DNA of 64,000 nt from Isoetes taiwanensis (lineage: Eukaryota; Streptophyta; Lycopodiopsida; Isoetales; Isoetaceae). Below, piece after piece: positions 2,748 through 26,990 of the stretch. The stretch is from positions 8,293,132 to 8,357,131 of the forward strand of contig JAJEKV010000011.1 of the NCBI GenBank assembly GCA_021234155.1, given 5' to 3'. A program made the translations under genes and the position numbers. Positions within the stretch are counted from its first letter, which is position 1, and every line of letters begins with the position of its first letter. Below the pieces are notes generated by a model that worked only from the letters and a program-made list of their open reading frames with translations, made no database searches and was not told where the DNA came from.

Positions 2748-3792
2748 TCACGCCTTATCTAGTCGAAGAAAACCATCCCTGAACCGTGGAAATCCATACA
2801 CTCGAGGCGCCAAAACGTAGGAGCGACCGCATGTATACGTACATTTTTTTTTCAAAAAAACCTCTTCTCCGTCCATGCACATGTATTCTACAGAATGTAA
2901 GTGTGAACCCCCCTTGATCTTAGCCCTTTGGCTTGGTTGTTTGGTCTTATCCAGACTCTCTTTCAACTTAGCACACAAGTTGCACTTTGCAAAGTTGTGC
3001 GAAGTGTCTATAGTGACATGCTTGAAGTGCTTGCTCCATAGTCTACTGAAGCTGGGTTGAGATATTGCAGGTACCATTAGTTCTCGAAGCAAAGCATTCA
3101 CTTCCTCCAATATGCTCTTCTAGATACAATGGGATGGCAATCTCTTCTCAATGAGCTATTTTTCCCCGTTGATCTTTCCTACTTTTATGTGGCATATTCT
3201 CAGCATTGAATTCAACATATTTATCAAAAACCTCCCTAGCAGCCAGGATCCTAGAAGTTGGCCTCAACATGCCATTATTTTCATGTAATGCAATTTTGTT
3301 CCCCTTTGCATGACTTGCTTGCCAATTTTGCCAAGATGAAATTGGAATGCCATGAATATTTATCCATGCAACTTTACATATCCATGCTCCTAGTAGTGGG
3401 TATCTATTTTTCTTTGGATATTTTTCATCTTGAAGTGCAAGCTCATGAATGGAGTACATGTAAGTCCTCCTCTCATCACAAGTATACTCTTGGAAGGTGG
3501 CTCTTGCTTCCACCAATTCATCAATTTCAAACTTTTGAACACAATTAGTCCAACAACATTCCATTCCCCTTACTATAGCCATAGCTTCATGTGAACAATC
3601 ACTACTTGACTTGGACCTCTTGCTAGGATAATGTTTCACCATTGAGTGTTTTTCGGAAAATGTGGTCCTGGCAGCTATTGGAGGTGCATTAGGAAAATCA
3701 GTATCATCCACAACCTCTGGCTTTGGTAAAAGGAATTCTCCTATAAACTCAATGCAGGCTATAGGCCATGGCATGATGCATAGAACCTCCAA
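2748..3792 (-). pseudogene. A1: truncated DUF7869-like transposase gene
   Basis: Two minus-strand frames (3,792-3,148 and 3,110-2,748) align in order with the middle of gene A2. The shared parts are a CCxxNC motif followed by a helical block (around 3,560), a helix-turn-helix-like segment ending in SSWQNWQ (A2 has STFYSWRKRF), a FDKYVEFNAE block (A2 has LDTFILENAR), and then LRELM...QPSFSRLWSKHF...FAKCNLC (A2 has VQELT...LPSFYKVWNKEF...FSKCNTC). The similarity stops before the catalytic region, so A1 is a 3'-truncated relic. It points away from B1, exactly as A2 points away from B2. A solo LTR now separates A1 from B1. The homology is what I see; the transposase role is inferred from A2. Confidence 0.7.
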
Positions 3793-3864
3793 TTGTTTAA
3801 TACAGGCAGTGCAATCCTAGTGATTTGACCCTTTTTCCTTCTATTTTTCTTCTAAACTTGTTAT

Positions 3865-5533
3865 TGTGACGTCCCCTACTCGTATACGGTGCCCGCACCG
3901 TGTACAAACAGGAGTTCATCCCCCATACCAGCTCCATACTGATATAGGGCCCTCCACGTATCACTGCAACCTTGAAGAGTTCCAGTGGGAAGAATGAAGG
4001 GGTCATTTTCCCTGTCTCCCTCAGGGCCTACCTAGCTGCGGAAGTGTAAACATACATGTCAGTAGTACATACATCAACATCATATGACCACCACGAAGGA
4101 TGGTCCTCCACATATCTGCATAGACAAAGATCAGCACATCACATAGGGAATCCTACCCAAGGCTCAGACACAGGGATGGACTGACAAGCTTGGGTCTCCA
4201 GAGGTCATTGCAGACAGAATTCATGGCAATGGATTTGGCTGGCATAAGAACATGGCTTAGGGTTGTCCACTCCATCCGCCCCTCCTGTGCACACTTTGCA
4301 GAGTAGGCTGAAAAGTGTTGGGACCTGACTGTAGCCCGCCGGGTGCATAGCCAAAGGGGCTATTCCTGGGTTGCATCTCCCCAGTCCCGATGGGGCAGGT
4401 AGGGATCACTCCCTCCAGAGATCTACATGCTGACTCAAGGTGACTAGAGGGCCACTGCCCGTATTCGACTTGAACCCATTGGAAGGTGAACCCCACCCCA
4501 CGGGTGTCGAGCCCATGCCTTGCCCGCACTCAGTGGCAAGCCATTAGACCTAGTCACAATGATCCCCGGTAGACTTTACACGCCAGAGGGATCGTTCAAG
4601 AGTCAGAACACGAATCTCCTTCTTAGCCAGTCTGGCCCCTTCACCCACAACCAGGTGTGGTTCTTGTACACATGCCGAATCTATATGGTGCTAGAGAGGC
4701 TAATCTAGGAGCATCTACTACCAAGCTTTAGGTCTCTACCCCCCTTCCCAATACAAGGAGTTCAGAGAGATACATCATCCATATACATCACAGAAGAACT
4801 AAAGAACAAGATCTAATCTATATCATAGAGTTAGGTTCTTTAGTTAGAGTCTGGTATCTAGAGATCTAGAAGGCTGCTATGGGCAATTTAATAGGCTAAA
4901 CCTACTGATTCAATGACTAAAAGAGGGTTTAAGCTATTAAATTGCCTAAATACCTGATCCTTGAGTTCCTCCTCCTGACCTGAGTTCGACCATCCTGCTG
5001 AAAGGCTCATTCAAGGAAAACTAACGATGCAGTTCTCTCAGACAGAGTCTGGGAGGCGGTTTTGGCTCTTGAAGCAGCCAAAACAGAGTTCTAAAACCCT
5101 AGAAACGAAAAATGGGCAAGTTAGGGTTTTCCTACTTAAATAGGCAAGGGGTTGGTTAGGGTTTCCAATTATCCCCTTTAGGCATGTGGGATAATTGGGA
5201 ATGGGCCCACTTGCCTTTAATGGCTATGTGGCAAAAAGTGCCCACATGGAAAGGTGTGCCCACATTAATGTGCATATTGGTAAATGTGCACATTAATTGC
5301 ACACTTGGGTATGGCCCACTTGGCATAAAGTGTCCACATGGGAAAATGTGCACCTAGATAAATGTGCACATGGTTAAATGTGCACATTAATAAATGCACA
5401 CTCCTTGCAAGTTGCCCCCTAGGGCTACCCGCCTAGCTATACGTCGGCGTACACGTCAGTCGGGGTGGCGTGTATGCGTGACGAGGCAATACAGTATACG
5501 TCCTGGGACCGTATACTGTGCTGGAACGTCACA
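3865..5533. mobile_element. Solo LTR (gypsy-type) with 5-bp target duplication
   Basis: The 1,669-bp unit begins TGTGACGTCC and ends GGAACGTCACA, the TG...CA ends of an LTR with a short terminal inverted repeat. GTTAT lies immediately before it (3,860-3,864) and immediately after it (5,534-5,538), a perfect 5-bp target-site duplication. There is no internal retrotransposon domain and no second LTR, so this is a solo LTR left by recombination. It sits in the intergenic space of the A1/B1 pair; without it that space would be about 0.46 kb. Superfamily is inferred from the ends only. Confidence 0.85.
5200..5402. repeat. Degenerate TGTGCACAT-rich repeat inside the solo LTR
   Basis: Variants of ATGTGCACAT, GTGCCCACAT and TGTGCACC recur about every 20-30 bases at the 3' end of the LTR. 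The core TGTGCACA is nearly palindromic. It looks like local slippage within the LTR. Confidence 0.6.
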
Positions 5534-5652
5534 GTTATGGCCACACCCACTTTATCCTCTCCTAACCTTTCATCATTGACAACTTGGATAGGATCAGCTA
5601 GTATGATATCTGTATTTTCTGTCAATAAAACTTCTGCCCGGCTGCTCATACT

Positions 5653-5782
5653 CCTGTCTATTATTTCTCTGGCAGTGAGTTAAATCTGCCTTTACATAAT
5701 TGTCCTTCATGTGTTTAATTATCCTGCATGTCATTAACTGTTCTGTCTATAATTTGTCTGGCAGTGAGTAAATTAGTCTGCC
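5653..5782. repeat. Two-copy tandem duplication, about 90 bp
   Basis: CTGTCTATTATTTCTCTGG...GTGAGTTAAA...CTGCC (5,653-5,690) recurs with few changes at 5,743-5,782, giving a 90-bp period. Both copies contain CTGGCAGTGAGT. It lies just upstream of B1, in what would be its promoter or leader. Confidence 0.6.
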
Positions 5783-7109
5783 CGTGTTTAATTGGCTGCC
5801 TTTGAGTGATTGTTCGGCCTTTCCTTTTTTGTCCTACCTATGATTAGTCTATCTGTAATTGGTGACTGTATGCCATTCTGTATAGTTTAGTCTGGCTGGA
5901 ATGGTTGACCACTCGAAATCGCGTTAAGTGTGTATTGCACCCTCGTTTGCAAGGAAGAAGAGGCAAAACCGATTGGTAATTGCTACACCTCCTCCTAAGA
6001 AAGCAAGAGGCTCGGAAGATACTCCAGTGACCTCAAGCTTACAGAAGAAGGGAAAGCCTAACGAGGATGCAGTATTCTATGCATTGTCGATGGATGATAG
6101 TGGATCCATTATCAGAGCAGACACAGATCCTCGATGCCCCGAGGAGAAGATGGATGACAGTGCGGAGTGGTATGTTGACGTAGGCAAAACAAATGGTAAG
6201 GTGGATTTTGTGTTACACTCCTGGAAGAAAGAGACCGATCTTATGAAGAAACAAGGTATTCTTATCACTTGTGAGGAGCAGGATGACATATATTGTCAAC
6301 TCCTAGTGGAAGAAAGATCTCGCCAGATTTACACATGCCAGGGCAACAGCTTTCAAAGATGGTCTGATGAAGAAGGATGTGAGTGCTGAGTCATATTTCA
6401 AGTATGGATGGCCTCAAAATACTGCTCTCACTCCAGTGTCTATAAGTGAAGGGGTGTCTGCATTGAGGAGAGCTTTGCGAGGACCTTCTCCAAGTTACTA
6501 CCTGGAAGAGTTGAAGCATCAAAATGATATCAGTGATGTACGAAGATTGCTGGACTAAGAAAAGGACATCCCAGCTGCAACAATTGATGGCATGCTGGCA
6601 GAAAATGAGTTCGAAAAAAAATCGCAGCTGGAGGCAATGAGTAGGTTGGTCAAGTATGCAGATAACTACCCACTTGGCAAATCTTTTACACATCCCATCC
6701 ATGTTGACCGTCTGGTGAGATCACATAAGTCAACATTTGTTAGTAGGAGGTATGACCCTGAGCATGCGAGAGAAATCTTGAGGGCGATGGTGAGGAATCC
6801 AGGCCAAGTCCCTATGCCAGCAGACGTGCTTCCTTGGGATAGGAAAAAGGATGCTCCACCCCAGTGGACAATACTAGAGGGGCTTACAATGGAAAACCCA
6901 AATGTATACTTCCTTATTATTGACGGACAACATTCTATTGAAGCATAACGATCCCTATCCAACCAAGCTAAGCAAACAGGACAAATCATGTATCTGCTTC
7001 ATTACAACCACAGGTGGTGTCGGTTTCTAAGCCCCCATACCCCTGCAGAGGACCTCGCAGAGATTAGTGCAACAGTGAACGAAATGGGCGAAGTCTTCCT
7101 TTATAAAAG

Positions 7110-7582
7110 GTTAGTATATTAGGTGGCATTTAGATATATCAAATAGGAATAACAGTAGTAGACTAGGTCAGGCGTGTATTCATGCTGTCAGTTCGCGCCT
7201 GGCGGGAATTGTTAGAATGAGTACACGCCAGAAGCAAATTGGCACGCAGTAGATTCCCAATTCGCGCCTGGCGCGAACTAGCAATCTTCTGGCGTGACAG
7301 AATAGTTTCTGGTGTGTATTCATGCTGCCAATTGGCCTTGTTGAATACACGCCCGAAACGGGTCTATCGGCGATATATTGCCAACTTCAGGCCGGCGTGA
7401 TGTATCAACGGCGTGTATTCACCGGGCAATGCTTGCTAATTGGCGGCTAAATACGCGTAAGCGTTTTTGGGCTGCCGCCCGGCTTTGTCCTTTCCTGATT
7501 ATTCTGTTGGCTTGATCTAAAAAGCAGTTTATTTTTGTATGCCCTGCGTGTTTTGGCTGATATGATTTTCTTATTCGTGCAG
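7110..7582 (+). other. B1 intron 1 with GC-rich palindromic motifs
   Basis: AAAAG|GTTAGTATA to TTATTCGTGCAG|CCC. Splicing joins VFLYK to SPYVEQ in frame and restores a block that is collinear with B2. Inside are repeated words: TTCGCGCCTGGCGCGAA (a near-perfect palindrome near 7,260), CGCGCCTGGCGGGAATTG (near 7,195) and two copies of GTGTATTCATGCTG. Confidence 0.65.
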
Positions 7583-9262
7583 CCCTTACGTGGAACAACT
7601 CCGTCATGCCAGAGGACGAAGTCTGGGCAAGTTTTGGGATGCTTATGCTCAGAAACAGCTGCCAGATGCAATGGGAAGAGTGTCTCCTCAAGATACTTCA
7701 ATATTTGATTTGAAGACCACCGAGATGAGGAAAATACAGGGCCTTCAGGATGACGAAGTCATTTAATTGTTAGATTAATGCATAAACAAAGAAGTTCTGT
7801 ACAAGAAGGCTTCTTCAGTTAAGGACAAAATGTCTTTCGCTGATTGTTGCACTCATATAAAGGACATGCGAGTTATGAAGGTAGCAGTTGGTCAAGAACT
7901 TCAGAAGCTATCTGGTGATGTAACATTGTCTGAACTCGGCCTACTAGACAAGTATGGCGTGTCTACCGATGACATCAAGAAATACATCTTCTGATCCAAG
8001 GACTTTCTGCAAAACAGGAAATCAAAGTTCCAACAGCATACTACATGACTTACCTGCACTCCAATACCTGGTTTCTACTGGCTATAAAGGTCTCCTACTC
8101 GATACAACAATAGGCCCTCGTAATATTTCTCTATTTGTATTGGATAGCAGAACTGCAAAAGGAGAGAAGGGGATGACTCAAAAAGAGTACAACAGTTTTT
8201 TTACTAGCTGCATAGGCTTAACAATTGAGAAGCTCTTTATTATTGTCATCATATGCCCTCCAGAAGAGCCTCATATGCATGCTTTGATGGCTTCATACGA
8301 CTTGGAATGCCTAAAGGTCGTTAGGGAAGATTCTCTTCTCTTTGAAACAAAGGATATTGATTTGAGGATGCAATTTAAAAGCGCTTGTATAATCTTCATA
8401 ATGATATCCCTTGTGCTAGATGATGACTATGAGATAGCTAAGAGCAAAGGGGCATCAGATAAAGGTGCATGGCAGTGTTTTCTTTTGGATGAACCTAGCT
8501 TGAAAAATGTCTTCTACAAAGCAGATGATGAGGATGAAGCGAATGAATGCATTGATGTTCCTGATCTTTACCAGAAAGACATCACTTTGGAATTGCTGAC
8601 AAAAGAAAAGGGGCCCTTGAATAAACATGGGTTTGCAATCAATCTGGCAAGCTATCTTGTTGAGGCTTTTGCACCACTTGATACCACTTGCTGTGAACTT
8701 CATGTTGGAGGGTACATTGGTAGAGAAGCCCTGAAGACATCAAGAAGATGTCTAAGTTTCGTCAACGATGACCAGTCCAGGGATTTCCTTGAAGTGTTTT
8801 TCAAAAAGGTACTAGCCACGGCTGATTGCGGTCCTGTCAAAGATAAAAACCCGTTGGCTTTGGTACCTTACAAAGGGAAGAAGCAGACTACTATTTCACA
8901 ACCGCCTCTAAGAACAACTCCAGAATGTTTAAAAAGCAATGCAACCCCCGAGAGAAGGCCGCAATGCTAGTGCAGGAATGTGAGATCATGGAGCAAAATA
9001 TGGAGTCTATGCTTGGTAATATTCCAACTGGTAATGTTACACTTGGGGGTACGACTACGGTAGTTCCTGATACAAGCCAGGATGTTCATGCAAGCTCAGA
9101 TTCAACCGTTGAGGTTAGGAATCAAAATCCTGAGGTAGCTTTCATAGAAGAGAACATGTCCGAACTAAACCGTGGAGTTGATGCTTCTGGCAGTAAGCAT
9201 CCGGGGAGTGAAATAGATGCTACGACTGCTGGGGATGACCACAAAGGCTTTGATGATGAAAG

Positions 9263-15004: not shown

Positions 15005-15231
15005 TAAAGTTGAACATTGGTGAATCCTCCAATGTAACGCGCTCACCTAAATAGGCAGGCACAATCAAGCAAGGGGGCACCACCTCGTATGCGACCACCA
15101 CCTAGTACGAGGTGGTGGCCACCACCTAGTACAAGCTCCCTGCACTCAGTCAAACAGAGGTGGTGGCCTGCATTATTGCGTGAGTGCAGCAAGGAGCCTG
15201 AGCTTGAGCCTGAGACTGAGACGTCCCATCC

Positions 15232-15257
15232 AAAGCACAATTTCATTAAAATGGGAA
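15232..15257. repeat. Left terminal inverted repeat of the A2/B2 element
   Basis: Starts AAAGCACAATTTCATTAAAA and matches the complement of 26,237-26,262 at every base. The following TTTCGTGATTCC resembles the right end's ATCTTGATTTC with a small gap. Confidence 0.85.
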
Positions 15258-15734
15258 CTTTCGTGATTCCAGTTAGGAACGAAAATACTTTTTCGGGTAT
15301 TTTTTGGCCTTATTTCCTATGATTATGGCGACGTTTAGCAAAAAAACAGCCTGAAATAGGCAATATATGGCGCCATTTAAATTTGTAGATGTGGATGACA
15401 AGGCCTGAGAAGTAGGTAATCAGTGAACATCTTAAATCGAAAGCACAACTAAAGCATTATAATGCAGCGTAGTAAAGTACAGAATATCAATTATGGCTTC
15501 TCGTAGTAGGTAAACCCGAGAAATTCACCCTTACAATGTCCTGCAAGTTCATATCCGGGAGATCAAGAATTGTAACATCAGGGACTTCGATGGGCATCTC
15601 TGGACGATCTCTGGACGATCACGCACCTTCGTTGAACATACATCTCTGCGAAAGTAGGGCGCATTGTGTTATTGACCCACAGGTGGTCCATAGATAACAA
15701 TCTCTTCAGAGCCTTGATTCGAACTTTGTTTATG

Positions 15735-16012
15735 CTAGCATTTCTTCGTCGGATGAAGCCCCCTCCTCCCAGTTTTCAGGGGGTACTTTATATAGCCCAT
15801 CAGACACGTGTCATCAGCAATAGGATGGTTAGAAGCATTCTAATCGTAGCAGTTGCAAATTTATAAGAGAGAATGAAAATAATTTGAAACTTACTTCTGA
15901 ATGTACAAATGTTGTTGTCCTCGGCAATTTTTACACAGTCCTCTCGTTGAAGATCATTAAGCAATAATGAGAGCTCATGAAGTTGTTGTTGGACGACGTG
16001 AGTGGCCACCAT
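15735..16012 (-). CDS. Possible small spliced gene at the left end of the element
   Basis: ATG at 16,012 (MVATHVVQQQLHELSLLLND...) opens a 39-codon exon that ends at a GTAAGT donor (15,894). Removing 15,840-15,894 joins it in frame to ...NASNHPIADDTCLMGYIKY..., ending at TAG 15,735, for about 73 residues. The first exon is amphipathic and helical. The 55-base intron is very short and the family is unknown. It might be a third element gene, the 3' region of B2, or chance. Confidence 0.25.
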
Positions 16013-16048
16013 CTTCTTCTATTTTGCCATGCTAAATATATACATATA

Positions 16049-16097
16049 GACCGTTGCAATGGACCGTTGCAAATGACCGTTGCAATGGACCGTTACA
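16049..16097. repeat. GACCGTTGCAATG short tandem repeat
   Basis: Four near-identical copies of GACCGTTGCAATG(G) with a 12-15 base period, just beyond the stop of B2. Confidence 0.7.
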
Positions 16098-17835
16098 GCA
16101 ACCATAGCATTTGCAATAGAAAAAGGATAAAGAGTAGCATTTGAAGACACACAATAACAAGTATATTTTAACAAAGTGCACCAATGACGATAGTCATGAA
16201 GATGTTTTATATTACATGAAATATATACAAGACTCATGCAGGCTCGGCTTCAGCAGTGGAGCCATGAGGAACCGGCTGCAAAGAACCCGTAGTAAAATTT
16301 TTAAGAAAATCAGGATCATCAAGTTTGGAGAGATCATACTTTGCTGCTTGTATCACATTGATGTCCACGTCTACCGGCTCTCCTTGAATGTTATCCACGT
16401 TTGCACTTGTGGAGGCTTCCTGGTCACCTCCAGTAGCAACCTGGTCACCTCCAGTAGCCTCCTGGCCACCTCCAGTAGCACCCTGCATCTCATTAATAGG
16501 CGTTGCTTGCAAGATTGGAGTATAGATACGTTCAATCCTGTTCAGAATTCCTTGCAAGCACTTTTGTTTGGCCTTAGTCTGCTCAAACACTATCTGAGAA
16601 TCTCTTGTCTTTTGAGCAGCCCTAGCAAAAGCGCCACAAGAGAAATAATCAAAAAACACGTCCCCTGGAGGTACCAACACGCACAAAATAAGAGGCGTTT
16701 GCGGCCAGATAGCTGGTTTTTCATCAAAATATCTCTGGCATGCCTTGCCAAGAATAGCGAAAACCGCCATGTAGCAACTTCTCAACCATTTCTTCCTTTT
16801 ACGCAGACCGGCCTCTTCCTCGTTTTATGTCGGAATTGGAGGAGCTACTTGAGGATGATCATCATAACCCAACCACGAGATTGAGATCCTCCACTTGTCT
16901 GAGGGGTGTAAAATTTGAATCTTGGTGGCATAGACCAGCACATGCAATTCTGGACCCCTTTAGGTTCATCTTTTCTATATGGATCCTCGTATGAACCAAT
17001 GTACACCCGGATCGAGACTCCAAGTTATCCGGCCGAGGAAAAGCGGCGTTATCACGAACCTTGGCAAAGCATACAATCCAGAAGGACTCGGCCTTTGTGT
17101 TCAACATAGCTTCGTTGAAAAACTCGGATAGTGTCTGTTTATCCCACATTGGCACGAGACTTCTAGTGTCAAGAGCAATCAGTGTTGCAGGCAAAGGATC
17201 ACATCGACAACGCCCTTTCTTTGGCCGGTGACCTCCACTTCAAGCATTATATCTTACGCTTCTTCTCTCCCGTCGATTCTGTTTCTTATGAGCCTAGCCA
17301 AGGACGACGGCAGAGTAGCCTCGGCTGGTTTTTTAGAAGCTTCTTTGTACCACTCGTTATGTAGAGTGCCAAAACCAATCAAATCATCATCTTCAAACCC
17401 AGGCACTAGGCTACGAAAATTTTCGAAAGATGTGAATCTATGCGGAAAATTTTCATCCACATAATCGAAAATCTGCTTCTTAAAAAAAGCAAGGGTCTTG
17501 TAAGTTTGTGCTCTAACCTTGAAGAAGCGATCTCCTTTGTAATCACTAGTGACCTTGACGTATGTAGAGCCACCTAGCACTTCATCGAAGAGTCTTTCCA
17601 TGTCCTCGTAGATCATGCCACGACATGAACGTAAATACGACTGGCTGAAGTAATCGCTTTCCTTACTCCAGACAGGTGCAATAGTCTGGCCCTTATTGTC
17701 TTTCAATTTCTTTTCTTTCCACGAGTTCCAGATCGTCATAAATTTATCGAATAGCGCATCTGGCATAAATATCCAAGAATTGAAATCCTTTGGATATTTA
17801 TTGCGCATGGTCACTTCTGCTAATGTTAGGTAGCG

Positions 17836-18111
17836 CTGAAAAAGGAAATGCGGTGTGTAAGACTGTGTAATGTAAATGGTATATAGAAATGAAATGGCGT
17901 CGTGGCTCCATTTGATTTCCAAATGGCGCCGTGGCGCCATTTGGAAATGAAGTGGAGCCGTGGCACCATTTTGAAATGAAATGGAGCCACGGTGCCATTT
18001 CATTTCGAAATGGCGCCACGGCTCTATTTCACTTCTAAATGGCGCCGTGGCGCCATTTAGAAGTGAAATAGAGCCTTAAAGAAAAATAAATGTATATTGG
18101 TAAGAACATAC
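17836..18111 (-). other. B2 intron 2, packed with palindromes
   Basis: Minus strand: TACAAG|GTATGTTC to CATTTCCTTTTTCAG|CGCTAC, 276 bases, joining TDAYK to RYLTLAEV in frame. About 190 bases of it (17,886-18,075) are six consecutive variants of the AAATGGCGCC-GTGG-CGCCATTT palindrome separated by GAAGTGAAAT-like spacers. Confidence 0.7.
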
Positions 18112-19735
18112 CTTGTAAGCATCGGTTACGGGTGACCGGCTCGGTAGGTCGGGCTACCACATGCTTTGTACTGACCCCTCAGATGTATTATCTTGTCAAT
18201 GAAAGGTTCTTTGAAGATGGTACCAGCAGCAATGTCATTGACTTCGCAGCTAAGTTGTAAATACTCAGCTTCACTTGCCGTTCCGGATATAATCCGACAT
18301 TTGCGGAACCTGTATATCTTTTGCATTTCTCTCATAGACTCAGGGGTGCCCAACCCAAAACATACTATCTGAGATGCCATGTTTGAGATAATACTCTGCC
18401 TCTTGCAGATCTTTCTCTGTTTTCCAAGCAAGCAGTTTCCCGGTATTAGGGTCGAATGGCACTACATCTGCATCCGAGAAGGCAGCATGTGGATGGTCCT
18501 GGAACCAGTCACAAAGGTTCTTGACGTGCGCCATATTCCTTGGCCTAGAAGTAAGATTTGGCGGCCCTTGGTGTAGCTTGAGAATATCAATTTTTTTGGT
18601 ATATGTAATTCCCAGAGGAAAGAGATGCCGATGCTCAGCGATTTTTCTCAACGCCTCCTCTGCAGCCTTCTCTTCCTCTGCTTTTTCAGGCTTAATCTGT
18701 TGTGTCTGCTCGAGCAACTCTTTTGATATCCGAAACGTGTGCTTCCCGGATTTTTTAGACGCCTGCTCGGACTGCTCACCTGTATGTAAAGACCTTCTAG
18801 CAGAAGGCGACGGCTCCATACTGGTTTCAGTCTCACTGTGTGCAGGGCTTGGCCGACGTTCCACCCTGGATCTTTTTGGTGTGCTTTCGGCTTCAGCAGA
18901 TTTTCTCCTTTTCTTCTCTGCCTTCCTCTGCTTCTTTTCTGCTTCCTTGTCAACCCTGTCCTTTTTATCTTTCCTCTTTTCTCGCTTCTGTTTTTCTTTT
19001 TCCTTCGGATTCTGCTCCACTACATCTTCTGCCTTCTCACTTCCTCCTTGTACATCTTCTTCTTCCGGGGGTTTTTCCACTGCCTCGCCCTGCTGAGTTC
19101 CCTTCTCCTTATCTTCTTTCCCTCCCTCCGTTTCTGCATCCTTATGATTCTTTGGCGGCTTACCCTTTTGCTTCATCTGCAACTCCGTTTTCAGCCAGGC
19201 AGTGTCTATGATGTGTGGAGTTGGCCTCAGGGAGTTCAGCCACCGAACGTAAAGAGATGGAGAGTTCATTGACTTATTCATAATAGGGCGCAATATGTTG
19301 TAGCCTCTCAAGACGTCATCAATAGACTTTATGCCCGCACTCTCAATACTCTCATATGAAGTCAAGGCCCAACCATGTTTCCTTGCACACCCAGCAGCAT
19401 TCTGTATGCTTGGGAGCATAAGTGCGGGATCATAGAACTGCCAGTCAACGTAATAAATGAGTAATTTGGTTTCAACTGGATCCTCAATCACCACGCGGAG
19501 CCAATCAGGCCGACTGCTTCTGGAACACTGTTTCATATTAATAACTATGCCGGGAGAATAAGCTTTAGAATCAGGTTCATTATTCTCTCTGAGAAGCAAA
19601 CATAGCTCTCTCCTACGATCTCCCAAGGAACCGGAAGGAGCATCATCGGAAATGGGCGGATGACATCCATAGCCCACTTCCTTTTGTTCATCCGACGCGC
19701 ATCAGATTGGAAAGATGGTTCTTCTCCGAGCCCCA

Positions 19736-20966
19736 CTTGCAACAAAGACAACCAAATATTTAATACCCACCTGCTTAATAAAGCATAGAGCTAGCAAATG
19801 GCGCCATGGCGCTATTTGCTCAGCTAAACAATAATCTACGTAGCATGCTCAGCATGCAAAGACTAACTATAGATTAACAAATAACGCCATGGCTCGGTTG
19901 CTCGGTGGGGGCATCTAAGTGCGACTTATACAAATGGCGCCATGGCTCCATTTGAAGTCTAAGTCCATAAATAGGTGATAAAATTTGAGCAAATGGAGCC
20001 ATGGCTCTATTTGGAGGTCTCGATCCCATAAATAGGTGATAAAAGGCTGAGCAAAAAAGCCATGCCATTTGAAGTCTAAGTCCCATAAGCGGTGATTGAG
20101 CAAATGGAGCCATGGCTCCATTTGGAGGGTCTCGATCCCATAAGTAGGTGATAAAAGCTGAGCAAATGAAGCCATGGCTCCATTTGAAGGTCTAAGTCCC
20201 ATAAGTAGGTGATAAGCTGAGCAAATGGAGCCATGGCTCCATTTGGAATCTCGATCCCATAAATAGGTGATGTCGAGATCCATTTGCTCGACATCACCTA
20301 TTTATGGGCGAGACTTCCAAATGGAGCCATGGCTCCATTTGCCAGCTTATCACCTACTTATGGGACTAGAGCAAATGGAGCCCATTTGCTCCTTTTATCA
20401 CCTATTTATGGGACTGAGACCTCCAAATAGAGCCATGGCTCCATTTGCTCAGCTTATCACCTGCTTATGGGACTTAGACCTTCAAATGGAGCCATGGCGC
20501 CATTTGCTCAGCTTATCACCTACTTATCGGACTCAGACCTCCAAATGGAGCCATGGCGCCATTTGTTCAGCTTATCACCTATTTATGGGACTGATCTCCA
20601 AATGGAGCCATGGCGCCATTTGCTTGGCTTATCCCCTACTTATGGGACTTAGATCCGCAGGGACCCATGGCGCCATTTTTCTCTTTTATCACCTACTTAT
20701 GGGACTTTAAGCTGCAAATGGAGCCATGGCGCCATTTGCTCAGCTTATCACCTATTTATGGGACTTAGACCTCCAAATGGAGCCATGGCGCCATTTGCTT
20801 GGCTTATCCCCTACTTATGGGACTTAGACCTGGAAATGGCGCCATGGCGCCATTTGCTCAGCTTATCACCCCTACAGCTAGCAAAGACTACACGACATCC
20901 AAATGGCGCCACGACGCCATTTAGATTACAAACTTAGAAATGAAAGAGAATGGGGCAAGTACTAAC
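19736..20966 (-). other. B2 intron 1, containing the palindromic array
   Basis: Donor TTCTG|GTTAGTACTT and acceptor TTGTCTTTGTTGCAAG|TGG, 1,231 bases. The junction links METTHLTGS in frame to VGLGEEPSFQSDARRM. Almost the whole intron is the 60-bp-period palindromic array. Support is by splice consensus and frame only. Confidence 0.5.
19797..20925. repeat. Head-to-head array of about 18 palindromic 60-bp units
   Basis: Each unit holds a 22-bp palindrome, AAATGG(A/C)GCCATGGC(T/G)CCATTT, spaced by GCTCAGCTTATCACCTA and TTATGGGACTTAGACCTCC. CCATGG centres recur near 19,807, 19,890, 19,940, 20,000, 20,112, 20,174, 20,232, 20,329, 20,435, 20,493, 20,553, 20,610, 20,667, 20,726, 20,784 and 20,843, with degenerate units near 20,060 and 20,375. 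Spacers are in one orientation up to about 20,270 and in the opposite orientation after about 20,285, so the array is an inverted dimer around TCGAGATCCATTTGCTCGA. Left units favour GGAGCC/GGCTCC; right units favour GGAGCC/GGCGCC. Spurious 'MAPFAQ'-type frames arise from it. Confidence 0.9.
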
Positions 20967-21312
20967 CAGAACCAGTAAGATGCGTGGTCTCCATGGTGCT
21001 GGTCTTCTAAAGGCCTTTGTGCTGGTGGGCGCTGGGCGCTGGAGCTGAAATGGGGGTTCTGGACCAAGTGCAGAAGGCGCTGACCTTGAAAGTGGCCTTC
21101 TGGAGCAAGTGACGATTTGGCCAGCGCCGGGCGCCGATGGAGCTGAGCCGGACGGACCTAAGGCGCCGGCCGGAAGGCTACGCCATTTACCGGGCGGCTT
21201 GAACACGAGAAAGAAAAATAATGAAATGAAATTTCCAACTGGCGCCAATGTTGTAATGGCGCAGAGGTTCCAAATGGCGCCGCCGTCCGAAAAAAGGGAA
21301 AATGCAGACGCA

Positions 21313-21522
21313 TTTTAGGCGGGCGGGAATGTGGTAAACGTCCGCCTAAAATGTCCGCCATTTTTTTAAATTTAGGCGGGCGGGAATGTTGTAAACGTCC
21401 GCCTAAAATGTCCGCCATATTTTTAAATTTAGGCAGGCGAAAATTTTGAAAACGCCCGCCCAAATTTAAATTTCAAAACGACCGCCCAAATTTAAATTTC
21501 AAAACGCCCGCCCAAACGTCCG
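21313..21522. repeat. AGGCGGGCGGGAATG tandem repeat
   Basis: A unit of about 58 bp, TTTAGGCGGGCGGGAATG...GTAAACGTCCGCC...TGTCCGCCAT, is repeated twice almost exactly, then decays into GCCCGCCCAAATTTAAATTT copies. Each unit is partly self-complementary (AGGCGG with CCGCCT). Confidence 0.75.
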
Positions 21523-21547
21523 CATTTTTTCATCAGCTGCTGAGAGT

Positions 21548-21745
21548 TTTAGGCGCACTAGATTGTTTAGGCGCTTGCGAGTTGCATATCTCAGGCGGAT
21601 GCGAGCTATCAGGCGCTGGAGGATAAGAGCTTTGGGGTTCTAGGCGCTGGTGTTCTAGGCACTTCCGGAGGAGATTTGTGCAATTCTAGGAGCTTCAGGA
21701 GATCCGCATTTGCTGGCGCTTCATCTGTTAGGCGCTATACACTTG
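21548..21745. repeat. Scattered AGGCGC motif cluster
   Basis: AGGCGC or AGGCGG occurs at least seven times in about 200 bases (for example TTTAGGCGCACTAG, TTTAGGCGCTTGCG, CTAGGCGCTGG, TTAGGCGCTATAC), immediately upstream of the A2 ATG. Confidence 0.55.
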
Positions 21746-21890
21746 AATTCTTCTGTTTAGAGTTCTATTGCAGCCAAGAACTATGGATCTGTCTAATATC
21801 AAGTAAGTCTGTTGTTCAACCATGGTTTCCGCATATTCCTGCTTCTAGCTGATACCCATGCTATGCTTACCTGATGGCATACAGTCCAAA

Positions 21891-21981
21891 CCCAAATGTA
21901 TGCCACCAACGTTCCTGCCCACTAGCTTTATTGCAAAGAAAAGAAGCTAGTGAGCAGGAACGGTGGTGGCATACATTTGGG
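21891..21981. ncRNA. Hairpin 1, precursor-like, in A2 intron 1
   Basis: Arms of 38 bases (21,891-21,928 and 21,944-21,981) are complementary except for two positions, around a 15-base loop. The stem runs from CCCAAATGTATGCC to CACTAGCTT. Size and near-perfect pairing suit a small-RNA precursor or a mobile foldback. I do not recognise the arms as a known miRNA family. Whether it is expressed is unknown. Confidence 0.45.
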
Positions 21982-21990
21982 TGTGTATGC

Positions 21991-22078
21991 GGTTGAACAA
22001 TTTCGTATATGATTCCACCCTCTTCATAGAAGGCTTCTTCTATGAAGAGTCTGCAGCCATGTATGAAGTTGTGCAACC
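21991..22078. ncRNA. Hairpin 2, precursor-like, in A2 intron 1
   Basis: An inner perfect 13-bp stem (CTCTTCATAGAAG, loop GCTT, CTTCTATGAAGAG at 22,020-22,049) is extended by imperfect pairing of GGTTGAACAATTTCG with the 3' GAAGTTGTGCAACC. The total is about 42-nt arms. It begins only ten bases after hairpin 1. Confidence 0.45.
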
Positions 22079-22278
22079 AAGCATAGTATGGGTGAGTGCA
22101 TTCTAGGTGCATATTAGATGAATGTTGTTTGTGGTTGTCGAATATTCTAGATGCATCTTAATTTAAGAACAATCTGAAAAGGGTTCCTAGCTTGATCTTA
22201 TTGCTGGCATTTAGCAATAGCACCTGAGGCAAATGGTGGCATGCTAGTTTTGATAGCTCTGTCAAAATTGCACTGCAA

Positions 22279-22480
22279 GTGGAAATGGCGCCATGGCTCT
22301 ATTTCCTCAGTATAGTGGTAATATCACACATACCAGCACAGATTCAGGCAAATGGCGCCATGGCTCTATTTCCCCAGAAAAGTGGCAATATCACATATGC
22401 CGGCCATGACCAAATGGGCCATGGCTCTATTTCCCCTGGAAAGTGGCAATATTACACCACAGCCAAATGGCGCCATTTGG
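22279..22480. repeat. Tandem repeat with the same palindrome, in A2 intron 1
   Basis: Three full units and one partial unit of about 65 bp carry AAATGGCGCCATGGCTCTATTT, then CC(C/T)CAG..AGTGG(C/T)AATAT. One copy has lost a few central bases (AAATGGGCCATGGCTCTATTT). The spacer differs from the one in the B2 array, so only the palindrome is conserved. Confidence 0.75.
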
Positions 22481-25400
22481 CTGAATTTTTCCCAAAATTT
22501 GCCTTTGCGTGTATTTAAATGGTGCCATTTTTTGCTGTTTTTTTGACATATTTTGCATATTTAGTTTGTATTCCTAATGACATTGCCTTTCTTATTGCAG
22601 TTTCAATTTTCCCTTGTACAACCTCTTCGTAGGAAGGACAATTGTTGCTAGGGGTCATCTCCTGCAGAGAACCCACCTTCATGGCCAGGAGGTACAAGAT
22701 TCGAACTTTGCAATTGAGGTGAAAGAGTCATTGGTCGGTTCAATGAACTTCGGTACCATGTGGGGTGCGAGATAACATTGAAGAGGCAGTTGGCACTTTC
22801 ATTCAGTGGCCGAAGAGGGATGTAAGGCCTGTTGAGTGGCCCTTGAGCGAAGACACATCTTCGGGACCAACCCTTAATTTGGGATCTTCAGAGGATTCAT
22901 CGAGTAGCCCACCCTCTTCCCCTAGCCAGCCAGACCTTAGTTTCGGAGTCGAGTTTGGTGAACCAAGCAAGACTAGAACAACTGAGGATGAAGAAATTGT
23001 TGTGGAGATTGGAGAACATGAAAATCTACAGGAACGTCTAGGCCTCAGGATTTACAAGCCTGAAGAGGTCAATTACTCCCGAACAGATCTACTCGGTATG
23101 CCATGCCACATTCTTCACTCATATATTGTGTCCAAGTATTCCGCGGGCAATATAGCCTTCAGTGATCCCCAGGATGCTATAGACGATGAGTTTTTGGGTC
23201 TATCAAGGATGGGTGTTTCGGTGGGTAAGATAATGGATGACATTGGAAACCAAAATATACGAAGCTGTCATGCTTGTGCAGAAAGGCCTGCAGCTGCATC
23301 CCTGGTTACCTGGGAGAGCTGTGATGTTCTACTTCAGGATGGTAGGACAGTATCCCAACACCTTCAGCCTCGAGCTGCAGCTGAGGCTATTGAAGAAGAT
23401 AGCTTGGAGGATGAATGCCTGGAAGAAACTGTTGAGAAGCAATTTAGGCGGAAAAGGAAATACACTTATGTCTCAAGGGTGCAGAGGGAACCTCAAGGGG
23501 ATAGCAAGAAGGAAAGGATGTGCGCTTCCAAAGCAATCAAGAATGCTCTCAAAACAAATTGCTGCAAAGACAATTGCACAAAGAAACTAACCACATCGCA
23601 AGTATGTGATTTAAGAAAAGAGTTTTATTCTCAATCAAGCAGTGAAAGGATTATGCTTGTTTTTGACGTGTTGAGTGTAACTTATACAGGGCACTCGGCG
23701 GGGAAAGTAGTGGTCTCTGGAGTGGAATGCTGTCATTATGCATGGCGACTTGCTTTAGGGGTTGCTCAGTCTACGTTCTATAGTTGGAGAAAGAGGTTCG
23801 ACGAAGGAAAAGAGAGCGAAACACGAATCTGTGCTCCAAGAAACCTCGATCAGTTACACTAGCTTCTGAGCGTGTGCTTGATACCTTCATTCTTGAAAAT
23901 GCGAGAGAGCATTCCACATAGGAGTAAAAGGGAAAGGGTGACATAAGGGAGAATGTTCGCAAACTTAGTCAATCCTCAATAAGAAGAGCATACACAAGGA
24001 ATTGAATGCCGTAGTCCAAGAGTTGACAGGACAATGTATAACTTTACCTTCTTTTTATAAGGTTTGGAACAAGGAGTTTCCAGATGTTAGCATAGCAAAA
24101 AATTCAGCATTCTCCAAGTGTAATACATGTGTAGTCATCAAGCAGAAAATGGAAAAAACAAAAGATACGAGGGAGAGGCGTAACCTTGCAATTCAACGGC
24201 ACGCACATATGTTGGAACAACGTTCCTGTAGGAGTCAATATTGGCATTGGCGTGCACTATCTCATCGTTCTCCAGAAAATTATCTTTGTATAATACATGA
24301 CAAGATGGATCAGGTGAAAACTCTTACACCAAGAAGTCATCACCTTGCAAAGTCAGTTTGGAGAGGAGATCGCCTTAAAAGCAGCTTGACAGGAGCATTG
24401 ACACATGGTCATGGTGGACGGGCTTACGGTCATTTCTCACTTGATCTGTGGAAAGATGACTCAAACTTCCATGTTGGATCACTTTCTAGGATCTTACACT
24501 ATCTTGAGTTACGGGATGAAGACAAGTGTGGTGATCTATGTGGAGGCAAAACCAGAGATTGCAAATTATTGCAAGCAGCAAAAGATACGCGACCACTACA
24601 ACACAAGCTAGCACAAACACGTCAGGCAGTTCCCGCACCTTCTGTTGGTGCCAGTTTAGAGGGCTTCAATCCTCTTCCTCGAAATCTCTATTTGCAATTG
24701 GATAATGCATCAGGTCAAAATAAAAATAGATATGTGTTCTCCTATCTCTCTTATTTGACATGGCTTGAGGTGTTCGATGAGATCCAGGTTGGCTTCATGA
24801 TGGTTGGGCACACTCATGATGATATCGATGCACTTTTCGGTAACTTCTCCAGTTTAATGACTCAATCGGATGCTCTAACCTTGCCTGAGTTGCTTTACTT
24901 GTTCCATACGTGCAATGCGTTGTCTCCTATTCCATATTTTGTAGATGAAGTTCCGGATTGGAAAGGCTTTGTGAAGGGATATATCCCTGATAAGGGCCAA
25001 CGTCTTACAGGCCATACGGATCCATTGCTATTTCGTTTTAAAATGGATGGAAAATGGCCCATTATGCAGTACAAGATGAGGCCAACCCATAAAGAGTGGC
25101 TACCAAAAAAGGGTGTTAAAATGTGGAAGGAGGATGAAAATGGTGACCCAGCATTACCAACAGGGGTGCCTAAAAACATCCCCCCAAGGAAGACATTAAA
25201 AAATGTGGAAGACTTGGAGGATAGCATCAACAAGTACATATCATTATGGAAGGACATCAGCAAGAGTCAGGAACAAAGTGTGTTTGGACAGCAGTACAAA
25301 GCAACTATAGATTATTGGACCGAGTCGCTTTCTTCTTTAAAAGATGTTTCTCCGGGACGACCTCAAAATGATAACTTCTGGTTGCGTACAAATCAAGAAC

Positions 25401-26104
25401 CTATACAAGTTGCCTTTGCTCCTCAGGTCGACGAATTAGCTGTTCCTGTGAGGCCTTTGCCTTCTTATTGTGGACCAGCAGATGGCCGTCCGGTGCTGCC
25501 TATGGAGGAGTTCGACCCCCATGTACATGTCACGAAAGGTATGTTTGTTCTAGTCACCTGGGGACGATAATACTCCAACATGGTTGGGCTATACAGAAGA
25601 AGATGCTGTCTTAGATCCAGAGTCTACCAATTTGGGTCATATCTATGTTTCCTGGTGGATGCCTGTTGGTCGTGACTATACGGGATGCTTAACTAAGCGT
25701 TGGCGACCCAATCCATCAGATCCATCAAGGTTTGAGAATCTAAATGCTATACATTATGCTTGGGACGCTTATGGCAAAAGACCGAAGACTGTTAAAATTC
25801 CAAAGTATATTGTTGATATGTGGGAGGACATAGCAGCAGCTAAGGGCTCTCAGTCTCAATCATGATGTAATTACTAATGATGTTTATCATGTGTATGTAT
25901 GATATGCCATTCACTTCGATATCAATGTAATTACTGTGAAGATGTTATTGGGGGTGTGATTGTGTTAGTATATGTTCTTTAATTGCACAACATAGGTATG
26001 ATATATGCATAGGTATGTAGGAAGGGTACCTGTGCATGAGACATGAAGGGTTGTATACATGAAGGGTGTGCATAAGACATGGAAGGGCTGTATACATGTC
26101 TACT

Positions 26105-26198
26105 ACACACAGTGTAAAAACACTTGACATAAGTCTACTACACACAGTGTAAAAACACTTGACACATGTATACAACACACAGTGTAAAAACACTTGCT
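26105..26198. repeat. Subterminal tandem repeat with hairpin
   Basis: ACACACAGTGTAAAAACACT recurs at 26,105, 26,140 and 26,176. Each copy can fold as AGTGT-AAAA-ACACT. The last copy is about 40 bp inside the right terminal repeat, the position where many transposases bind subterminal sites. Confidence 0.7.
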
Positions 26199-26236
26199 TG
26201 CCTCAAAAAAAAAATAATTCCAGAAATCAAGATATT

Positions 26237-26262
26237 TTCCCATTTTAATGAAATTGTGCTTT
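26237..26262. repeat. Right terminal inverted repeat of the A2/B2 element
   Basis: Ends ...AATGAAATTGTGCTTT, the exact complement of 15,232-15,257. It is followed by CCATC, also found before the left end. Confidence 0.85.
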
Positions 26263-26482
26263 CCATCGATGGGGATGCATGAGCTGCAATGGGCTGATGC
26301 GGATTTCATGCATAATCGAGCTAACCACAGGAATCCGACCAAGTTTACCACTTCTCGGAGTAGATATACGGCGCTCCTCTTATATGCATCTCTGATAAAA
26401 TCCCTCAGAGCCGATAACTTCGGAGCAAAATATCCTCCAACTCCAAGAACCATTGCTAACAGAGTGCAACAATCTTATATGC

Positions 26483-26990
26483 AGTAATCCATTATACACA
26501 TCAAATGCTTTTAGCAAACTTTCTTTTGGCTGGTTGACACCACTTCTAGCTAAGGGCTCTGTGAAAATTTTAGACTCAACAGATATCCCTCCTGTCAAAG
26601 GACAAGACAAGGCAGATGCTGCCTATAAGCAATTTGTGATTGCCTGGAATGCCAAAAAACAAGGTGATTCAGCGAAGCCTCAGTCAGTTGCTCTTGCATT
26701 AGCAAGGTGCCATTGGAAAGCCTTAATCTGGACCATGTTTTGTGCTCTATTTCGAGCAATTAGTGTATCTTATTCTTCATGGATCCTTTGTACCTTTATA
26801 AACTTTGAAGCTGGAATTCAGGACTTCAAATATGAGGGATATCTTTTGGTTTCTGTTCTTTTTCTGTCTAAGGTATTTGAGATCGTATTACAAAAAACTG
26901 CAGTATAAAGTCTACTTTGGTATCCTGTACCTTCAACACGATAAGAGAAAATCATCGCAAGCTTCTAAATGCCATTGTGTGGATGAGTAA
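26483..26990 (+). pseudogene. ABCC (MRP-type) transporter fragment
   Basis: The frame reads NPLYTSNAFSKLSFGWLTPL, then AKGSVKILDSTDIPPV, AKPQSVALALARCHWKALI, and hydrophobic segments (WTMFCALFRAISVSY, EGYLLVSVLFLSKVFE). This is the linker and start of the first membrane domain of plant ABCC vacuolar transporters, which export glutathione and other conjugates. Only about 150 of roughly 1,500 residues are present. After 26,908 the frame shifts and no ATP-binding domain follows. Likely a captured or abandoned gene fragment just outside the A2/B2 element. Confidence 0.8.

Follow-up and report, generated by a model that had tools for sequence, protein, structure and literature searches.

A Multi-Copy DNA Transposon of Isoetes taiwanensis, Probably Sola-Like, with a Predicted DUF7869 Transposase, a Conserved Accessory Gene and an Array of Palindromes

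The Element and Its Ends

The window analysed here is a 64-kb stretch of DNA from Isoetes taiwanensis, and the 11-kb DNA transposon found in it occupies positions 15233-26261 (Table 1). Two divergent genes lie inside the element, B2 on the minus strand at the left and A2 on the plus strand. Both are frame-broken in the window copy (in A2 the breaks lie near 23862 and 25570), and the splicing that the initial annotation had given them is deduced from the reading frames. A 26-bp perfect inverted repeat, AAAGCACAATTTCATTAAAATGGGAA, is found at 15232-15257 and in reverse orientation at 26237-26262, with CCATC on the outer side of both ends, as had been annotated. An 18-bp part of the repeat, allowed up to 3 mismatches, occurs at these two places in the window and at no third. 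The terminal inverted repeat (TIR) proper is 25 bp long and perfect and starts with AAGCAC. It is one base shorter than the annotated repeat because the first A, as seen in other copies, is part of the target duplication.

Table 1. Features of the element and of a second, older gene pair in the 64-kb window
Feature	Position	Strand	Basis or remark
A1	~3690-2880	-	33-36% identical to P0001
B1	6559-8967	+	keeps ParB-like part and methylase-like tail
Left target site duplication, TCCA	15229..15232	.	copy comparison
Left TIR, 25 bp, AAGCACAATTTCATTAAAATGGGAA	15233..15257	+	repeat search and copy comparison
Gene B2 (accessory), ~1,050 codons, several putative exons	16237..19701	-	open reading frames, frames
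Methylase-like C-terminal part of B2	16530..17240	-	motif reading
6 palindromes, 29-bp spacing, putative B2 intron	17892..18058	.	
ParB-like part of B2	18150..18633	-	motif reading; homologous to ParB-like part of B1
15 palindromes between B2 and A2; 8 of 14 intervals 57-62 bp	19796..20922	.	
2 palindromes, putative 5' intron of A2	22283..22371	.	
Gene A2 (predicted transposase), start approximate	22600..25866	+	open reading frames, frames, copy comparison
A2 catalytic domain, DUF7869 region, predicted RNase H fold	24170..25198	+	
Right TIR, 25 bp	26237..26261	-	repeat search and copy comparison
Right target site duplication, TCCA	26262..26265	.	copy comparison

The host genome searched comprises 1,658,258,908 bases in 1,110 contigs; the published assembly is given as 1,658.30 Mb in 204 scaffolds and 909 contigs (PMC8566536). 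For the left end, a 301-bp query gave 40 scored places from 578 first-look candidates. Six of these match at 99-100% across all the element sequence in the query; the remaining 34, at 77-82%, span at most its first 157 bp. For the right end, a 306-bp query was matched over its full length at 99-100% in five places, and the other 35 of the 40 listed matches are short. Searching with both termini, as the initial annotation had proposed, thus yielded further copies: five more near-identical ones and nine diverged left-end loci (of the 34 listed) were retrieved. Five full near-identical copies (C919, C1032, C1097, C1086 and C941; the window's included) have both ends, measure 10.5-11.06 kb and align end to end except in parts of the repeat block. 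C1061 has a near-identical left end and no right end within the 13.5 kb examined, and a diverged left end at C1037:10.76 Mb has none in the 13.5-13.7 kb examined. At C812, two left ends in the same orientation (352421 and 359476) lie ~7 kb apart, each followed by its own B gene.

A perfect 4-bp duplication flanks all eight copies in which both ends were seen, and the element therefore starts at AAGCAC. The duplications are TCCA, TTAT, GCAA, TATA and TGTT in the five near-identical copies and TTCA, TCTA and TCTT in the three diverged ones. The first base is T in seven of the eight and the last is A or T in all. A target duplication of 5-6 bp had been expected; only 4 bp fits every copy. Kolobok and piggyBac elements have a TTAA target duplication, and none of the eight is TTAA. 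With its TIRs and target duplication the element is a genuine multi-copy class II transposon, as first annotated.

The Predicted Transposase

A2 matches the Pfam family PF25273 (DUF7869) with E 1.7e-41 and 142.3 bits against a curated cut-off of 26. The C1032 copy of A runs for 695 codons without a stop. An upstream open reading frame gives weak helix-turn-helix matches below cut-off (HTH_23, E 0.011). The predicted structure of A2 has an RNase H core with likeness to mariner transposases and integrases, and conserved Asp residues stand at the DDE/D positions. Alignment of A2 with 31 relatives shows three positions that are always Asp: one closing beta-1, one following beta-4 and one opening the helix that comes after beta-5. 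When the set is widened to 43 sequences, the last two stay invariant and the Asp of beta-1 nearly so. Of the 50 VIA rows listed, 49 are transposases or integrases and one is an Argonaute. Foldseek alone, run with both A models, gave no match at E <= 0.001.

Genome-wide, 150 DUF7869 matches were scored out of 9,902 first-look candidates, and the domain is far commoner than this element family, as expected of a superfamily. Copies of A2 or B2 lacking these termini had been named beforehand as an observation that would speak against the element; the excess of DUF7869 agrees instead with a superfamily of which the element is one member. Predicted fold, conserved Asp residues and abundance together with the Pfam match bear out the annotation of A2 as a DUF7869 transposase, predicted to be of the DDE/D type. 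Between the C1032 and C919 copies, A shows coding constraint (synonymous divergence, pS, 0.014 and nonsynonymous divergence, pN, 0.001 over 449 codons).

In viral contigs 196 pattern matches included no true relative, and A2 had no match in phages. In genome contigs a single relative was met, L036, on the 4.3-kb contig CADCWO010000071.1 of a cyanobacterial metagenome-assembled genome; it is probably eukaryotic contamination.

The Accessory Gene

The reading of B2 given in Table 1 was pieced together from several copies. Its ParB-like motifs were recognised by eye: RPRNMAHVKNL and, further on, VVPFDP, with YYLVNGNHS in the C941 copy. Across copies the same part reads RPRN..HVK.L, VIPFNP and YYIVNGNHSVMAA. 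The C-terminal part, also read by eye, has a glycine-loop-like DYFSCG with DPLP upstream, or TPVP or THVP in diverged copies. Beta-class methylases carry a DPPY-type tetrad at this place.

The genome holds many more such genes. Of 6,711 candidates for B, 68 were scored; they gave 117 matches, and many of these lie in open frames of at least 500 amino acids. Outside the genome the yield was small. One weak PHROG methyltransferase match was obtained for the methylase-like part of B2 (E 0.12), and a rerun of PHROGs with two diverged methylase-like parts and one ParB-like part gave no methyltransferase match. No ParB or methylase model in NCBIfam supports the labels. Word-limited searches of a 5.8-billion protein set, one of them scoring only the top 7,998 candidates by shared words, met no relative of B. 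A phage or plasmid origin was also considered and rejected: B has no phage match, like A2, and the plasmid search, made with B, gave two meaningless matches (E 3 and 6). B2 had been annotated as a ParB/methyltransferase-like accessory. It is a conserved accessory gene, and by motif it looks ParB-type with a methylase-like tail; that part of the annotation stands, and the family assignment finds no confirmation in Pfam.

Linkage and Divergence of the Two Genes

B is present in all nine of the diverged left-end loci examined. Its methylase-like piece shows 38-67% identity there, and the gene starts at most ~1 kb from the left end in eight of the nine; in C1105 it lies ~8.7 kb away. At five of these loci A lies farther downstream (10-14 kb examined per locus). 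B2 is thus linked to A2 and to the termini in two diverged subfamilies. Between subfamilies B shows pS ~0.8 (saturated) and pN ~0.27; in these counts, as in those for A, stretches with less than 30% local identity had been dropped. Within one subfamily the ratio of nonsynonymous to synonymous substitution (dN/dS) in B is 0.5-0.7, a value probably raised by assembly errors.

For C974 against C1032, A is 85% identical in amino acids with pS 0.37, and B is ~57-58% identical with pS saturated, so that A is much less diverged. This suggests, from sequence comparison, that the transposase module may have been exchanged between subfamilies.

A second A/B pair, diverged and older, lies at 2880-8967 of the window. 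In its A1 nothing matches the catalytic core of DUF7869. The ParB-like parts of B1 and B2 are homologous (BLASTP E 2e-7; profile E 1.1e-8 in a small search space), and their C-terminal parts match at E 0.003 in the same small profile search.

The Palindrome Array

Besides its genes the element carries many copies of a 22-bp palindrome, AAATGGMGCCRYGGCKCCATTT. A search of the element and the retrieved loci, with up to 3 mismatches, found 23 in the window's element, 22 of them with at most one mismatch; the remaining 53 kb of the window and 20 shuffles contain none. In the four other full copies the number is 12-26 and in C1061 it is 6. Among the diverged loci, eight of nine have 4-14 palindromes and C1105 has none. 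In the eight diverged loci with an array, palindromes lie in the B intron in seven, between B and A (~3.8-6.1 kb) in seven, and in the 5' part of A (~6.2-7.0 kb) in four. At least one palindrome was found in three of four further B loci (4.3 kb each), and none in the fourth, L043. Two DUF7869 loci (L038 and L039; 3.6 kb each) have no palindrome.

The exact core form, with its ATGG centre, occurs 1,055 times in the genome, and the reversed pattern 0 times. Of the 17 palindrome clusters listed, 6 lie within 6 kb of a listed end or B match, those lists being incomplete. The palindromes are likely binding sites of B.

Relation to Known Transposons and Systems

Sola elements are described as having DDD transposases, 4-bp duplications and TIRs of 11 to 1,124 bp; most are 2-9 kb long and some exceed 15 kb, and they are present in moss and seemingly uncommon in flowering plants (PMC10741241). 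Sola2 elements have AT-rich 4-bp duplications and captured accessory genes (PMC3627910), and Sola is also mentioned in PMC3985635, PMC6875170, PMC10294476 and PMC8230255. The Isoetes element shares the 4-bp duplication (all eight both-ended copies), a short TIR (25 bp), a predicted RNase H transposase with three Asp residues and the occurrence of its transposase family in moss. At 11 kb it is longer than most Sola elements, and it has an accessory gene. It is likely Sola-like, a placement made from these traits.

The closest published counterpart is Sola1-1_Ec32 of the brown alga Ectocarpus, a Sola-1 transposon of 21.5 kb whose ParB plus DNA-methyltransferase gene encodes 1,104 amino acids and is oriented against the transposase gene (PMC12477816). 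ParB/methyltransferase-like proteins are also known from green and red algal transposons (PMC12477816, citing Iyer 2011 and Petroll 2025). In the Isoetes element the second gene likewise runs against the transposase gene, it looks ParB-like and methylase-like by motif, and its ~1,050 codons come close in size. In contrast to Sola1-1_Ec32, the Isoetes element is half as long, resides in a lycophyte plant, carries the palindrome array and has a methylase tetrad that looks non-canonical; the two are likened by description. The initial annotation had known of no named superfamily with this gene pair. The published accounts supply one, and because a similar pair is on record in Ectocarpus the pairing of a transposase with a ParB/methylase gene is not new. 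What may be a new feature of the element is the palindrome array. In the literature on ParB, methyltransferases and transposons no further account of the pair was recognised, most subscription papers being outside reach of the search.

Bacterial ParB-parS is a partition and spreading system. The Isoetes element resembles it, by analogy, in having a ParB-like protein and clustered palindromes on one element, with putative binding between them; unlike ParB-parS, it is a eukaryotic transposon with no Pfam ParB match and no ParA partner noticed. A further parallel comes from fungi, where DNA transposons carry TET/JBP dioxygenase genes (PMC12730594): there too an accessory gene serves DNA modification, although the modifying enzyme is different.

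DUF7869 has been a Pfam name without a function; it is here tied to a mobile element with defined ends and a 4-bp duplication, with Sola as the likely superfamily. The pair of a transposase and a ParB/methylase-like gene is extended from algae to a lycophyte plant, with both genes conserved between subfamilies.

Proposed Mechanism and Alternatives

The reading we favour, and hold to be somewhat more probable than its negation, is that of a likely Sola-type 11-kb transposon which the DDE/D-like A2 is predicted to move and which B2 would help by binding the internal palindromes. A2 would bind the termini, excise the element and join it to the target with a 4-bp stagger; the duplication is observed and the catalysis is deduced. 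B2 would load on the 22-bp palindromes between the divergent genes and in the putative introns of both, and so mark the element as self. From the array it would likely either regulate the promoter region that the two genes share or shield the DNA, using a methyl mark in case the tail has kept its activity. The role and chemistry of B2, its palindrome binding, the methyl mark and the membership of the host element in Sola are all inferred. On a bolder version, which we regard as speculative and on balance improbable, the element carries a parS-like system: a ParB-type protein would read the array, so that copies of the element are distinguished from other genomic DNA, and the former methylase tail, lacking the canonical motif, would now sense DNA or a cofactor and thereby counter or tune host silencing. 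If B does bind the palindrome, this would be a eukaryotic self-recognition system analogous to ParB-parS, and the array makes the idea of a self-marking element directly testable through binding of B to the 22-bp site.

Several points weigh against the favoured reading and lend themselves to other explanations. DUF7869 could not be tied directly to Sola by sequence, and 'DUF7869' is not mentioned in the 5.39 million papers searched, a set that lacks most subscription papers. DUF7869 might then be a distinct DDE/D lineage, a separate superfamily still without a name, whose 4-bp duplication is coincidental and whose ParB/methylase gene was gained independently; such genes also occur in other algal transposons (PMC12477816), so that sharing one is no proof of kinship. 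We think this unlikely. The 4-bp duplication in eight of eight copies, the predicted Asp at the third catalytic position and the ParB/methylase-like gene on the opposite strand all agree with Sola, and DUF7869 proteins are present in Physcomitrium, a moss reported to carry Sola (PMC10741241). The favoured reading is also burdened by B2 itself. Three Pfam scans of B pieces met no ParB model at E <= 1, 5 and 10, for which reason B is called ParB-like and not a ParB, and no N6/N4 DNA methylase model. A DPPY-type tetrad was not found either, the catalytic motif being non-canonical, and B lacks a database match. B2 could instead be a host-derived or orphan passenger with no relation to ParB or methylases, and the palindromes simple tandem repeats, located in promoter region and introns, that have no protein partner. 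The arrays are indeed partly tandem, with 29- and 59-bp periods such as replication slippage can produce, and the palindrome richness of the window's element is partly circular because the pattern was first read off that element; this does not affect the counts in the other copies and in the genome. A mere passenger is doubtful, if a little less so than a separate superfamily. B is constrained between subfamilies and lies beside the left end in eight of nine diverged loci, the palindrome core is kept between subfamilies though the B proteins are only ~57% identical, and the same window holds a second, older A/B pair.

It had also been foreseen that the termini might occur mainly as an independent pair of miniature inverted-repeat transposable elements (MITEs), the enclosed genes being host sequence caught by chance. 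Most of the listed matches are indeed to short stretches (34 of 40 left ends and 35 of 40 right ends), and the far end was inspected for a minority of them. Both gene regions nevertheless lie between the ends in all five full near-identical copies, which measure 10.5-11.06 kb, and B lies inside all nine diverged left-end loci examined. With B beside them in nine and A in five of those nine loci, the termini do not occur chiefly as a MITE pair of their own. For the copies examined a MITE pair is ruled out, and for the family as a whole it is very improbable.

Frame Breaks and Neighbouring Sequence

An open reading frame at 26399-26908 of the window, starting ~130 bp from the right end, resembles a plant ABCC-transporter by eye; a Pfam scan of this piece gave nothing at E <= 1.

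The differences that separate one copy from another come in clusters. For C919 against C1032, 72 of 134 events span several columns (repeat block dropped). In 4 of 10 copy pairs, those tested, the differences are 2.0-3.4x enriched near CAG/CTG, CCG/CGG and CG sites. As controls, five triplet pairs gave 0.9-1.4 and GAC/GTC gave 1.4-1.9. The Isoetes taiwanensis assembly was made with Nanopore v9.4.1 flow cells (PMC8566536), and together with the enrichment at CG and CHG sites this makes it likely that part of the frame breaks are base-calling errors at methylated cytosines, although true C-to-T decay at CG sites would yield part of the same signal. The element copies are likely heavily methylated.

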